A stretch of 64,000 nucleotides of DNA, from assembly GCA_027484825.1 (NCBI GenBank), contig JAIXSE010000022.1, positions 1 to 64,000 on the forward strand, read 5' to 3'. Position 1 is the stretch's first letter. Each line of letters starts with the position of its first letter. Below, piece after piece: positions 7,783-41,033 of the stretch. Position numbers and translations under genes: made by a program. Source of the DNA: Rubrivivax sp. (GTDB lineage: Bacteria > Pseudomonadota > Gammaproteobacteria > Burkholderiales > Burkholderiaceae_C). A model generated the notes under the pieces. That model was not told the DNA's origin. It was given only the letters and a program-made list of their open reading frames with translations, and ran no database searches.

Positions 7783-7963
7783 TGAGGGTTGTCGCCTGAA
7801 ATACCTCTTGACGGCAAGTTCGGGGCGGCGGACATTGCACCAACGCGGTTCGCCCCCCCCACAAGGGTGCGCGGCTGTGCTGTCCACAAATAAAAACAAT
7901 CGAGTCGAAGAGAAGAGACCTCAACGGTTTGCAGTCGATTTCTGACGCTGCCCAGCGCCGCGG

Positions 7964-9182: not shown

Positions 9183-10691
9183 ATGCAGACCCACGGTACA
9201 GCGGCCAGTCACCAGCGTTTCGAGGCGCCGGAGCGCCACTTCGCGGGGATGAGTGCCGATTTTCTGGCTCGAATCGTCGCCGCCGCGTCCGACGTGGCGC
9301 TGGTCGTGGACAGCCAGGGCGTCATCCGCGATGTCTCCCTGGGCGCCTCGGCCGCCGCCGAACTGTCCGAATTGCGGCAGTGGGTCGGTCGGCGCTGGTC
9401 CGAAACCGTGACCATCGAGAACCGCGGCAAGGTGCAGGCCATGTTGTCCGCGGGGCAAGCGGCTTCGGCGTCCAAGACCGCTGCTCTTCCCGTGATGCCG
9501 GAGCGCCAAGTCACCCACGCCCTGTCCGGCGGCATCGACCTGCCCATCAGCTACAGCATCGTCCCGCTGGACGAGCTGGGCGGCGTACTGGCCCTGGGGC
9601 GCGACCTGCGCGAAGTGGCGGCCGTGCAGCAGCGTCTGGTCGATGCACAGCAGTCGATGGAACGCGACTACCTGCGCCTGCGTCACACCGAAGCCCGCTA
9701 CCGTCTGCTGTTCGAGGCGGTCGATGAAGCGGTGCTGGTGCTGGACGCCAGCTCGCTGGTGGTGTTTGAACACAATGCGGCGGCGACGCAACTGCTGGGC
9801 GAGGTCGGCAAGCGCCTGATCGGCCGCAGCCTGCTGGACGTGCTGCAGGCAGACAGCCAGGCCGATGCCCAGGCCGCGCTGGCCCAAGCCCGCAGTGGCG
9901 GGCGCTGCGACGATCTGCCGGTGCAGCTGGCTGCCAGCGCCGGTGCGAAGGGGCCGGGGGCGACACTGCATCTGTCGGCATCGGCCTTCCGCCAGGACAG
10001 CACGACCTTGCTGCTGGCCCGTTTGTCGGCCGCTCAGCCGTCCGCATCGGCGGGCAAGGCGGCACAGGGCGATGGGGCCCCCTCCTTGCTGGATGTGGTG
10101 AACACACTGCCCGACGCCTTTGTGCTGACGGACATGCAAGGGCGCATCCTCAGCGCCAACCAGGCCTTCAGCGACATGCTGCAGTTGCCGCCCGGCGAAG
10201 CCGTGGTGGGACAGCCCCTGGACCGCTGGCTGGGTCGCACCTCGGTGGACATGAGCGTGCTGATCGGCAACCTGCGTCAGCACGGCGTGCTGCGCCTCTT
10301 CCCCACCACGCTGCGCAGCGGCTTCGGTGAGGCCAGTCCGGTGGAAGTGTCGGCGGTGGCGGTGCCCGACGGCCGTCAGGCCTGCCTGGGCTTTGCCATC
10401 CGCGACGTGGCCCGGCGGCTGCCTGCGGAGACGCGACCGACGCGGCAACTGCCCCGGTCGGTGGACCAGCTCACCGGGCTGGTGGGTCGTCTCCCGCTCA
10501 AGGACATCGTCGGCGAGACCACCGATCTCATCGAGAAACTCTGCATCGAAGCCGCCCTGGAACTGACCCGCGACCATCGCGCTTCCGCCGCGGAAATGCT
10601 GGGTCTCTCGCGTCAAAGCCTCTACGTGAAGCTGCGCCGCTACGGCATTCTGGGCGACTCGACCCAGGATGACACGATGGCGTCAGACTGA
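9183..10691 (+). CDS. ppsR: PpsR/CrtJ transcriptional repressor (PAS-PAS-HTH)
   Basis: PAS segments plus C-terminal Fis-type HTH LIEKLCIEAALELTRDHRASAAEMLGLSRQSLYVKLRRYGILGD with Cys at the HTH; start taken at ATG 9183 within ORF 9078-10691. Confidence 0.94.
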   Translation: MQTHGTAASHQRFEAPERHFAGMSADFLARIVAAASDVALVVDSQGVIRDVSLGASAAAELSELRQWVGRRWSETVTIENRGKVQAMLSAGQAASASKTAALPVMPERQVTHALSGGIDLPISYSIVPLDELGGVLALGRDLREVAAVQQRLVDAQQSMERDYLRLRHTEARYRLLFEAVDEAVLVLDASSLVVFEHNAAATQLLGEVGKRLIGRSLLDVLQADSQADAQAALAQARSGGRCDDLPVQLAASAGAKGPGATLHLSASAFRQDSTTLLLARLSAAQPSASAGKAAQGDGAPSLLDVVNTLPDAFVLTDMQGRILSANQAFSDMLQLPPGEAVVGQPLDRWLGRTSVDMSVLIGNLRQHGVLRLFPTTLRSGFGEASPVEVSAVAVPDGRQACLGFAIRDVARRLPAETRPTRQLPRSVDQLTGLVGRLPLKDIVGETTDLIEKLCIEAALELTRDHRASAAEMLGLSRQSLYVKLRRYGILGDSTQDDTMASD

Positions 10692-38358: not shown

Positions 38359-38531
38359 GCGCGGCGCGATGGACGCGTGTGGCGGTCCGGCTGTGGTCGG
38401 CGCTGTTTGAGGCGCTATTTGAGGCGGGAAGGACCGTCGCCCTGCAGCACGGCATTCCCATCGCGGGGACGCAGACCCTGATCAACAGCCCGGTCAACAG
38501 CCCTGTCCTTGGGGCGGGGGAGACAGCATGA
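38355..38531 (+). CDS. Candidate 58-aa micro-ORF coupling pufM and pufC
   Basis: ATGA overlap with both pufM stop and pufC start; [58 protein letters not shown]. Confidence 0.5.
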
Positions 38532-39673
38532 CGCAGACTCAGACACGCCAGCGGGCGCCCCTGCGGGTGCTGATGCTGGCCTCGACCCTGGTGCTCGGGC
38601 TGCTGGCCGGCTGCGAACGGCCGCCGGTGGAGACGGTGCAGCGCGGCTACCGCGGCACCGGCATGGAGCAGGTCTACAACCCGCGCCTGCTGGCCGAGCA
38701 GGCGGCGGCCAACGAGGCGCCGGCACCGCTGGAGCCCGCGTCGCCGGACGGGCCCAAGGCCGGCCAGATCTACCAGAACGTGAAGGTGCTCGGCCACCTC
38801 AGCGTCGGGGAATTCAACCGCACCATGGCGGCGATGACCGCCTGGGTCGCGCCCAAGCAGGGCTGCGTGCACTGCCACAACGTGCAGAACTTCGCCGATG
38901 ACTCGCTCTATCCGAAGCTGGTGGCGCGGCGCATGCTGCAGATGACGCAGACCATCAACAGCGACTGGCAGCGGCACGTCGGCAAGACCGGCGTCACCTG
39001 CTACACCTGCCACCGGGGCGAGCCGGTTCCGAAGGAAGTGTGGTTCCAGCCGCTGACCCCCAGCGGGGCCAACACCTTCTCCGGCAACAAGGCCGGACAG
39101 AATGCGCCGGCTGCGAGCGTCGGGCTCGCGTCCCTGCCCAATGACCCGTTCACACCGTTCCTGCTGGAGAGCGAGAACATCCGTGTCGCCGGCACCCAGG
39201 CGCTACCGGCCGGCAATCGCCAGTCCATCAAGCAGGCGGAGTGGACCTATGGGCTGATGATGCACATGTCCAAGTCGCTGGGGGTGAACTGCACGCAGTG
39301 CCACAACACCCGGTCGCTGGGGTCGTGGGACAACAGCTCCCCGCCGCGGGTCACCGCCTGGCATGGCATCCGCATGGTGCGGTCCTTGAATAACGACTAC
39401 CTGGTCCCGCTCACCCAGACCTTCCCGGCCAACCGGCTGGGACCGATGGGGGATGTGGCCAAGGTCAACTGCGCGACCTGCCACCAAGGCGCGCACAAGC
39501 CGCTGTATGGCGCGGAAATGGCCAAGTTCCATCCGGAGCTGCTGACCAAGTCCCCGCTGGCGCCGGCAGCGGCGTCGAGCCCGGCGTCGGATCCGTCGAT
39601 GGTGACGGCGGAGGATCTGCAGATGCTGCGGGCCCTGACGCCCGAGGGCGCCAAGCCAGGCGCGCCCAGCTGA
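38528..39673 (+). CDS. pufC: Reaction-centre-bound tetrahaem cytochrome c subunit
   Basis: Lipobox-like VLGLLAGCERPP; four CxxCH motifs CVHCH, CYTCH, CTQCH, CATCH. Confidence 0.97.
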   Translation: MTQTQTRQRAPLRVLMLASTLVLGLLAGCERPPVETVQRGYRGTGMEQVYNPRLLAEQAAANEAPAPLEPASPDGPKAGQIYQNVKVLGHLSVGEFNRTMAAMTAWVAPKQGCVHCHNVQNFADDSLYPKLVARRMLQMTQTINSDWQRHVGKTGVTCYTCHRGEPVPKEVWFQPLTPSGANTFSGNKAGQNAPAASVGLASLPNDPFTPFLLESENIRVAGTQALPAGNRQSIKQAEWTYGLMMHMSKSLGVNCTQCHNTRSLGSWDNSSPPRVTAWHGIRMVRSLNNDYLVPLTQTFPANRLGPMGDVAKVNCATCHQGAHKPLYGAEMAKFHPELLTKSPLAPAAASSPASDPSMVTAEDLQMLRALTPEGAKPGAPS

Positions 39674-39836: not shown

Positions 39837-41033
39837 GTGTCCACGCCCTCCGAACCCGACCTCAGTGCGTTTGCGTCCCTGGCGCATGAACTGGCCCTCA
39901 CCATGGCGCATGTGGTGGGGGACCTGTCCCTCGTGGTGGACGCACAAGGCGTGGTCATGGCGGTGGCTGAGGGGGCCTCGGCCCCGGTGGACGGCAGTGC
40001 GTCCTGGGTCGGGCAGGCCTGGGCGGAGACCGTCTGTGCCGGCAGCCGTGCCAAGCTGACGGCGCTGCTGGACGAGGTGGACCGCTCCGGTCAGGTCGTC
40101 CATGGGCGGGAGCTGATGCATCCCGGACCGCAAGGCGCCACCGTGCCGATTTCGTGGTCCGCCATTCGCTTGGGGCCGCTTGGACCGGTGCTGGCCGTGG
40201 GGCGGGACCTGCGCGCGATGACGGCGATGCAGCAGCGGTTTGTCGAAGTGCAGCAGGAGATGGAGCGGCATTACTGGCGCTACCGCCAGGTGCAGAGCCG
40301 TTATCAGCAACTCCACCAGGTGGCGCACGATGCGGTGCTGATGCTGGATGCCGGCAGTCTGGTGGTGTTGCAGGCCAATGAGGCGGTGGCGACGGTGCTG
40401 GGGCGGGATCTGCCCCAGCTGCTGCATCAGCCGCTCACGGACAACCTGCCGGACCAGCTGCGCGGTGACGTGCTGGAGCTGCTGGTGGCGGCGCGCAGCG
40501 GCGGGCGGGCACTGTCCCGGCACGCGCTGGCAGGCGAGGGCACCGTGTCCCTGGACATGACGGTGGCGCCGCTGGCGGTGGACGGACGACGGCATCTGAT
40601 GCTGCGGGTGCGTGATGCCCGGCTGTCGGCGGAGGATGAGGCACTGGCGCTGACCCGCATGGCGAATTTTGTCGAGCGCACGCCGCAGGGGCTGGTGATC
40701 ACCGATGCGCAGGGTCATGTGCGGATGGCCGGGCCTGCATTCCTGGCCTGGGTGGGACAGGCGGATGACCACGCGATGCGGGATCGGACCTTGGCCGATT
40801 GGGTGAAGGATCCGGGCGGTGCCTGGTCGGCGCTGACGGCGCAGGTGCGGCGGGTGGGCATGGTGTCGGGGCTGCGACTGGACCTGCAGACCTCCACAGC
40901 AGAGGTGCAAGCGGTGGAGGTGTCCGTGGCCTTGCTGGCGGAGACCGAGCCGGCGGGCCTTGGCTGGGTGCTGCGGCTGCGTCAAGAGGAACGGGGCAAG
41001 CGGGCGAGGGGACGCGGCAAGCGTCAGGGCTGA
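39837..41033 (+). CDS. PpsR-like PAS protein lacking the C-terminal HTH
   Basis: GTG start; DLSLVVDAQGVVMAVAEGASAP, GPVLAVGRDLRAMTAMQQRFVEVQQEMERHYWRYRQVQSRYQQLHQVAHDAVLMLDAGSLVVLQANEAVATVLG parallel PpsR at 9183; ends in basic tail RGKRARGRGKRQG with no HTH. Confidence 0.85.
   Translation: MSTPSEPDLSAFASLAHELALTMAHVVGDLSLVVDAQGVVMAVAEGASAPVDGSASWVGQAWAETVCAGSRAKLTALLDEVDRSGQVVHGRELMHPGPQGATVPISWSAIRLGPLGPVLAVGRDLRAMTAMQQRFVEVQQEMERHYWRYRQVQSRYQQLHQVAHDAVLMLDAGSLVVLQANEAVATVLGRDLPQLLHQPLTDNLPDQLRGDVLELLVAARSGGRALSRHALAGEGTVSLDMTVAPLAVDGRRHLMLRVRDARLSAEDEALALTRMANFVERTPQGLVITDAQGHVRMAGPAFLAWVGQADDHAMRDRTLADWVKDPGGAWSALTAQVRRVGMVSGLRLDLQTSTAEVQAVEVSVALLAETEPAGLGWVLRLRQEERGKRARGRGKRQG

Follow-up and report, generated by a model that had tools for sequence, protein, structure and literature searches.

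The 64,000-nucleotide stretch of DNA analyzed here (the window), from a genome deposited as Rubrivivax sp., carries two genes of the PpsR family, and the second of them raises the question of what a PpsR-like protein might do without a DNA-binding end. The first gene, ppsR1 (9183..10691, plus strand, as are all window features below), encodes a canonical PpsR with a Fis-type helix-turn-helix (HTH) and the HTH cysteine. The second, ppsR2 (39837..41033, GTG start), encodes a 398-aa paralogue, and its coordinates and PpsR-like order of motifs are as a previous sequence-only reading had described them. Two features support the GTG start at 39837: an N-terminus, ending in PDLSA, that is conserved among orthologues, and an ATG at the same spot in one of them.

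The predicted structure of PpsR2 consists of three PAS folds, a 40-residue helix (residues 125-164) and a disordered tail from residue 385, with a mean pLDDT of 89. The N-terminal PAS domain (N-PAS; residues 10-124, 39864..40208), modeled with pLDDT mostly >90 and aligned to the PpsR of PDB 4hh2, is followed by the Q-linker helix (residues 125-164, 40209..40328), by PAS1 (residues 165-262, 40329..40622; placed by domain search and structure model) and by PAS2 (residues 263-382, 40623..40982). This domain order is common to PpsR2 and the known PpsR/CrtJ proteins (TIGR02040; R. sphaeroides PpsR, 4hh2). PDB 4hh2, which is R. sphaeroides PpsR without its HTH, was the best match both by sequence and by fold search; the global TM-score was only 0.28, a low value that a different placement of the domains would explain. 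Aligned domain by domain with PpsR1, all four parts pair up (N-PAS 39% identical, Q-linker 46%, PAS1 31%, PAS2 22%; 33% over 395 aligned columns, E 2e-46), and only the HTH is absent.

The differences from PpsR/CrtJ are the loss of the HTH, of its cysteine and of the PAS2 docking residues discussed below, and a score under the family cut-off: the TIGR02040 (PpsR-CrtJ) profile matches PpsR2 over positions 2-359 of 442 at 217.3 bits (curated cut-off, 275.4 bits), versus positions 2-442 at 465 bits for PpsR1. Pfam HTH_8 likewise matches PpsR1 but not the window PpsR2, so the claim that the Fis-type HTH is missing holds. In its place is a basic disordered tail, KRARGRGKRQG (40983..41030; residues 385-398 have pLDDT <50), which differs among species. 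It had also been noted that no remnant of the domain lies downstream in any frame; a search with HMMs made from the canonical PpsR HTH and from the HTH of PpsR2 relatives found none when all six frames of the 500 nt past the ppsR2 stop were scanned in the window genome and in its five congeners that carry the gene, which rules out an HTH shifted into another frame or a nearby ORF. The protein's single cysteine is indeed C67, in VCAGSRAK. Redox sensing through the HTH cysteine is ruled out for PpsR2, which lacks that residue; in Rubrivivax the HTH cysteine has been reported not to explain PpsR control (PMC4452267).

Is this simply a broken gene? Within Roseateles, the genus in which the window genome falls, ppsR1 is present in 6 of 16 genomes, and each of these six also carries the HTH-less paralogue, located downstream of pufC. 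The orthologues are 60-85% identical, with the frame intact in 6/6 PGC-bearing genomes. A recent truncation or a sequencing error is ruled out by the occurrence of the same HTH-less form in six genomes, and a full-length HTH, which the sequence-only reading had named as the sign of such a truncation, was found only in relatives outside the genus, where it is non-canonical. The R. depolymerans orthologue, 85% identical and adjoining pufC, very likely corresponds to ORF350 of the R. depolymerans cluster (Suyama 2002), since an internal ATG at codon 41 would give a product of exactly 350 aa. ORF350 was described as a "crtJ homologue" of unknown contribution (PMC10037100); the available portion of that description names the crtJ homologue only and does not speak of HTH loss. 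Two Roseateles-group genomes have short tandem repeats with stop codons at or just past the point where ppsR2 ends: CCCTGAC repeats at L086 7130-7175 and GGTTGATGCGGCC-like repeats at L085 7425-7480.

Substitution rates point to a gene under selection. Between the window and R. depolymerans, dN/dS for PpsR2, calculated with a simple estimator and from small per-domain counts, was 0.20 overall, 0.11 in N-PAS, 0.03 in the Q-linker and about 0.25-0.28 in PAS1 and PAS2. In each of the PpsR2 pairs examined, the Q-linker had the lowest rate (0.02-0.03 in near pairs of the genus, and 0.02-0.12 as its full range), followed by N-PAS (0.11-0.22 in near pairs), and PAS1 and PAS2 evolved faster than either, with omega up to 0.43-0.66 in some pairs. 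For PpsR1, dN/dS against R. depolymerans was 0.10, with the HTH and Q-linker at zero, and its PAS2 evolves much more slowly than that of PpsR2. These values bear on the proposal that PpsR2 is the leftover of a lost light module, drifting toward a pseudogene after losing a neighboring bacteriophytochrome gene (bphP) and its HTH. That both are missing on the same branch, that omega is high for PAS1 and PAS2 in some pairs, and that the gene has an uneven 3′ end, which carries tandem repeats in two species, would all fit such drift, but a frame that stays intact in all six genomes down to 60% identity, a Q-linker omega of about 0.03 and an N-PAS held at 0.11-0.22 are unlike those of a decaying gene, and we consider it an improbable account. 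Judged from its substitution pattern, the window ppsR2 is a selectively maintained paralogue without a DNA-binding end.

To place this paralogue, we collected homologues from family, order and phylum searches and built trees without the HTH columns. The window gene groups with other sampled Burkholderiales proteins in a clade of 31 (100/100 support), for which we coin the name PpsR2. A search for plasmid-borne relatives gave only distant matches, annotated as ppsR. For Rubrivivax gelatinosus, a single ppsR has been described (PMC4452267). PpsR2 coexists with an intact PpsR1 in 35 of 36 genomes. In the exception, G446, ppsR2 and bphP are present and neither ppsR1 nor bchG was found; an assembly gap is likelier than a true absence of PpsR1 there, because bchG is missing as well and adjoins ppsR1 in G246, a genome of the same genus.

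Outside Roseateles, PpsR2 proteins have an HTH-like C-terminus (with exceptions in one group, f30, described below), and the loss in Roseateles maps to a single event on a 100/100 branch whose sister, G379, retains the HTH. The retained domain is, however, far from canonical. The HTH cysteine and, in the recognition helix, Arg, Gln, Tyr and Lys do not vary among 71 canonical PpsRs drawn from Burkholderiales and other proteobacteria, whereas the HTHs of PpsR2 proteins retain them in 0, 21, 14, 0 and 0% of cases, respectively. The missing HTH cysteine, to which the sequence-only reading had drawn attention in the window protein, is thus a trait of the whole clade and not only of the truncated form. 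Of the roughly 37 HTH columns conserved in canonical PpsRs, 19 are lost across PpsR2, whereas over the PAS domains and Q-linker the loss is 7 of 59. Profile scores follow suit: HTH_8 gives 40.6 bits for PpsR1 versus 29-17 bits or no match for the PpsR2s tested, and an HMM of the canonical-PpsR HTH gives 16-55 bits for PpsR2 versus at least 124 for canonical members. The diverged HTH nevertheless appears changed rather than dead in the near relatives, and by the same token to do something there, since purifying selection continues to act on it (omega 0.03-0.09 within two sister genera and 0.18-0.41 between genera). These comparisons place the loss of the canonical recognition residues from the clade's HTH earlier than the disappearance of the whole domain in Roseateles. 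About 10-25 residues past the diverged HTH, PpsR2s often terminate in a short conserved tail such as LLN, LIN or SIN (L089-L096, L101, L103).

The genomic company kept by ppsR2 differs between these two sets of genomes. In the window, ppsR2 starts 163 nt after the stop of pufC (38528..39673), which encodes the reaction-centre cytochrome, and the link to the reaction-centre operon that the sequence-only reading proposed is real but local: it is confined to Roseateles and three sister genera (11 genomes), whereas at greater evolutionary depth ppsR2 is linked to a bacteriophytochrome gene. At 31 of the 35 PpsR2 loci outside Roseateles (six of them from the f30 group), the next gene on the same strand encodes a bacteriophytochrome, and counting G090, where that gene is cut by the contig end, brings this to 32 of 35. 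The three exceptions are G342, with bphP on another contig, G257, in which no such bphP was found, and G057, an incomplete genome. The one-strand ppsR2-bphP pair is a conserved element of many Burkholderiales photosynthesis clusters (L089-L103, L124-L136, L208). The one ppsR2-linked phytochrome that we tested by domain search has PAS_2, GAF, PHY and PAS_9 domains; in the linked phytochromes, the PAS9 domain is followed by a short helical end.

In Roseateles, there is no phytochrome gene next to ppsR2. The position that bphP occupies in relatives is taken in the window by a putative Na+/H+ antiporter gene (PF07399; 41150..42469), and the linked bphP type was found neither at the ppsR2 loci of the six Roseateles-group genomes nor elsewhere in those genomes. 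A single deletion removing both the HTH and bphP is not supported, because the downstream neighbors of the Roseateles and sister-genus loci do not match. Five of the six genomes do have a phytochrome, 32-36% identical to the linked type, and in the sixth, G012, the search returned no phytochrome match. The sole match in the window genome lies on another contig (C26:18369-19841; L219, L273), and its C-terminus resembles the ATPase end of a histidine kinase, unlike that of the PpsR2-linked type.

The f30 group offers a second example of HTH loss. These sequences form a separate, long-branched group from another family in which a PpsR paralogue is again followed by bphP; the HTH is absent in four genomes, and membership of the group in the PpsR2 clade gave an AU p of 0.358. 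In three of its genomes (L204 6347-9699, L205, L203), the TGA stop of the HTH-less ppsR overlaps a possible GTG start of bphP (GTGA), an arrangement that suggests translational coupling; the phytochrome gene there follows immediately and encodes PAS2, GAF, PHY and PAS9 domains. From the sampled sequences, then, the HTH is lost in at least two lineages: Roseateles, where bphP is gone too, and f30, where bphP is retained.

A related pairing is known from alphaproteobacteria. The PpsR2-BphP1 system of Rhodopseudomonas palustris and Bradyrhizobium resembles the arrangement in most of the Burkholderiales relatives in that a PpsR paralogue lies beside a bacteriophytochrome, and BphP1 shares with the linked Burkholderiales phytochromes a PAS9 domain and short helical end. 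In the alphaproteobacterial genomes examined that have two PpsRs, one of them adjoins a divergent kinase-type phytochrome gene. These phytochrome-linked PpsRs keep a canonical HTH and recognition helix, unlike the PpsR2 proteins described here, and they form a clade of their own, although a tree joining them with PpsR2 was not rejected (AU p 0.108). In R. palustris, the piece of PpsR2 that BphP1 binds comprises the Q-linker and PAS1 (PMC13058837), so a PpsR2 without its HTH could still bind a phytochrome.

If PpsR2 no longer contacts DNA in the canonical way, which protein contacts might it have kept? In the R. sphaeroides PpsR tetramer, Q134 and E138 of the Q-linker pack against L340 and R339 in PAS2 of the other dimer, and PpsR from which the HTH was deleted still dimerises, with tetramers at higher concentration (PMC3949515). 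PpsR2 retains the equivalents of Q134 and E138 (34 of 35 rows each). At the positions of R339 and L340, by contrast, its residues vary, being S344 and G345 in the window protein, and most PpsR2s have also lost E356; PpsR1 has all of these residues. Judged from this alignment, in which one side of the contact is retained and the other lost, PpsR2 could plausibly offer its Q-linker yet not return the PAS2 contact.

The same Q-linker could have a different customer. In R. sphaeroides, AppA docks on it (PMC3949515), and it is the best-retained part of PpsR2. A ppaA/aerR-like gene for a B12-binding antirepressor (PF02310, PF02607; 7964..8995) adjoins ppsR1 on its upstream side and encodes a candidate alternative partner, so PpsR2 might act as a decoy, titrating PpaA/AerR or a different antirepressor through its Q-linker and PAS domains, in which case repression would be strengthened rather than weakened. 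We consider this unlikely: PpsR2 has clade-specific conserved residues in N-PAS and in the Q-linker (F135, W147 and V162 in the window protein), and the Q-linker changes could weaken the binding of a PpsR1 partner. A PpsR operator in front of ppsR2 is not supported: no TGT-N12-ACA site lies between pufC and ppsR2, and the window as a whole has eight such sites versus five expected, which is not clearly above chance. Possible PpsR sites lie at 7881, 10729, 14194, 15893, 20361, 25250 and 28126, with those at 7881, 10729 and 20361 near gene boundaries.

The best reading of the domain anatomy and of the retained, selected Q-linker is that they are compatible with an HTH-less partner of PpsR, predicted, as the sequence-only reading had also suggested, to tune it through hetero-oligomers. 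We put at about even chances the proposal that PpsR2 is a protein-contact partner of PpsR1 that weakens repression, formerly phytochrome-controlled and free-standing in Roseateles. PpsR2 would not bind PpsR operators on its own; it would pair with PpsR1 through N-PAS and the Q-linker to give hetero-oligomers with too few HTHs and improper tetramerisation, and weakened repression of the bch, crt and puf genes would follow. Where relatives have the phytochrome, it would bind PpsR2 at the Q-linker and PAS1, as BphP1 binds that region in Rhodopseudomonas palustris, and would thereby control the pairing. In Roseateles, which has lost the light input, PpsR2 would persist as a free-standing antirepressor or buffer whose PAS domains may sense some signal.

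Several observations count against this account. The Q-linker is equally constrained in PpsR1, a pattern to be expected of a PpsR2 homodimer no less than of a heterodimer. PAS1 and PAS2 of PpsR2 change faster than its N-PAS and Q-linker, with PAS2 far less constrained than in PpsR1, and the diverged HTH of the nearest relatives is still selected. The clade-specific Q-linker residues F135, W147 and V162 might even favor self-pairing. PpsR2 could accordingly be a homodimeric PAS sensor, or a scaffold for a partner other than PpsR1, such as the other, kinase-like bacteriophytochrome. The conserved PpsR2-specific residues in N-PAS and the Q-linker, and the phytochrome with a different C-terminus on contig C26, would suit such a role, but G012 keeps ppsR2 with no phytochrome match in the search and the phytochromes of the other five genomes are only distantly similar to the linked type, which makes this a rather doubtful alternative. 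What leads us to favor an antirepressor or buffer of PpsR1 is the near-constant presence of PpsR1 beside PpsR2, the dimerisation of HTH-deleted PpsR, and two precedents among HTH-less LuxR paralogues: TrlR of A. tumefaciens binds and disables intact TraR (PMC3907764), and CerN of Cereibacter sphaeroides binds and disables intact CerM (PMC11655674). As with PpsR2, an intact regulator is present in the cell and the partner-binding domains are retained; TrlR and CerN differ in belonging to an unrelated protein family and in that contact with the intact partner, published for them, is a prediction for PpsR2.

For the clade as a whole, we suggest more tentatively that PpsR2 gave up canonical DNA binding to become an adaptor between a bacteriophytochrome and PpsR1, that the HTH was then wholly lost at least twice, and that the Roseateles protein is a free-standing antirepressor. 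In the literature outside subscription papers, we found no report of HTH loss, of a PpsR2 clade or of phytochrome pairing in Burkholderiales. The trigger for photosynthesis genes in Roseateles is carbon starvation, and the regulators are largely unknown (PMC10037100). More generally, little is known of how photosynthesis genes are switched in betaproteobacterial phototrophs, for which PpsR2 and the ppsR2-phytochrome pair provide a candidate regulator and a candidate light input. The clade also offers a natural series in which a transcription factor sheds its DNA-binding domain and retains its partner-binding helix.
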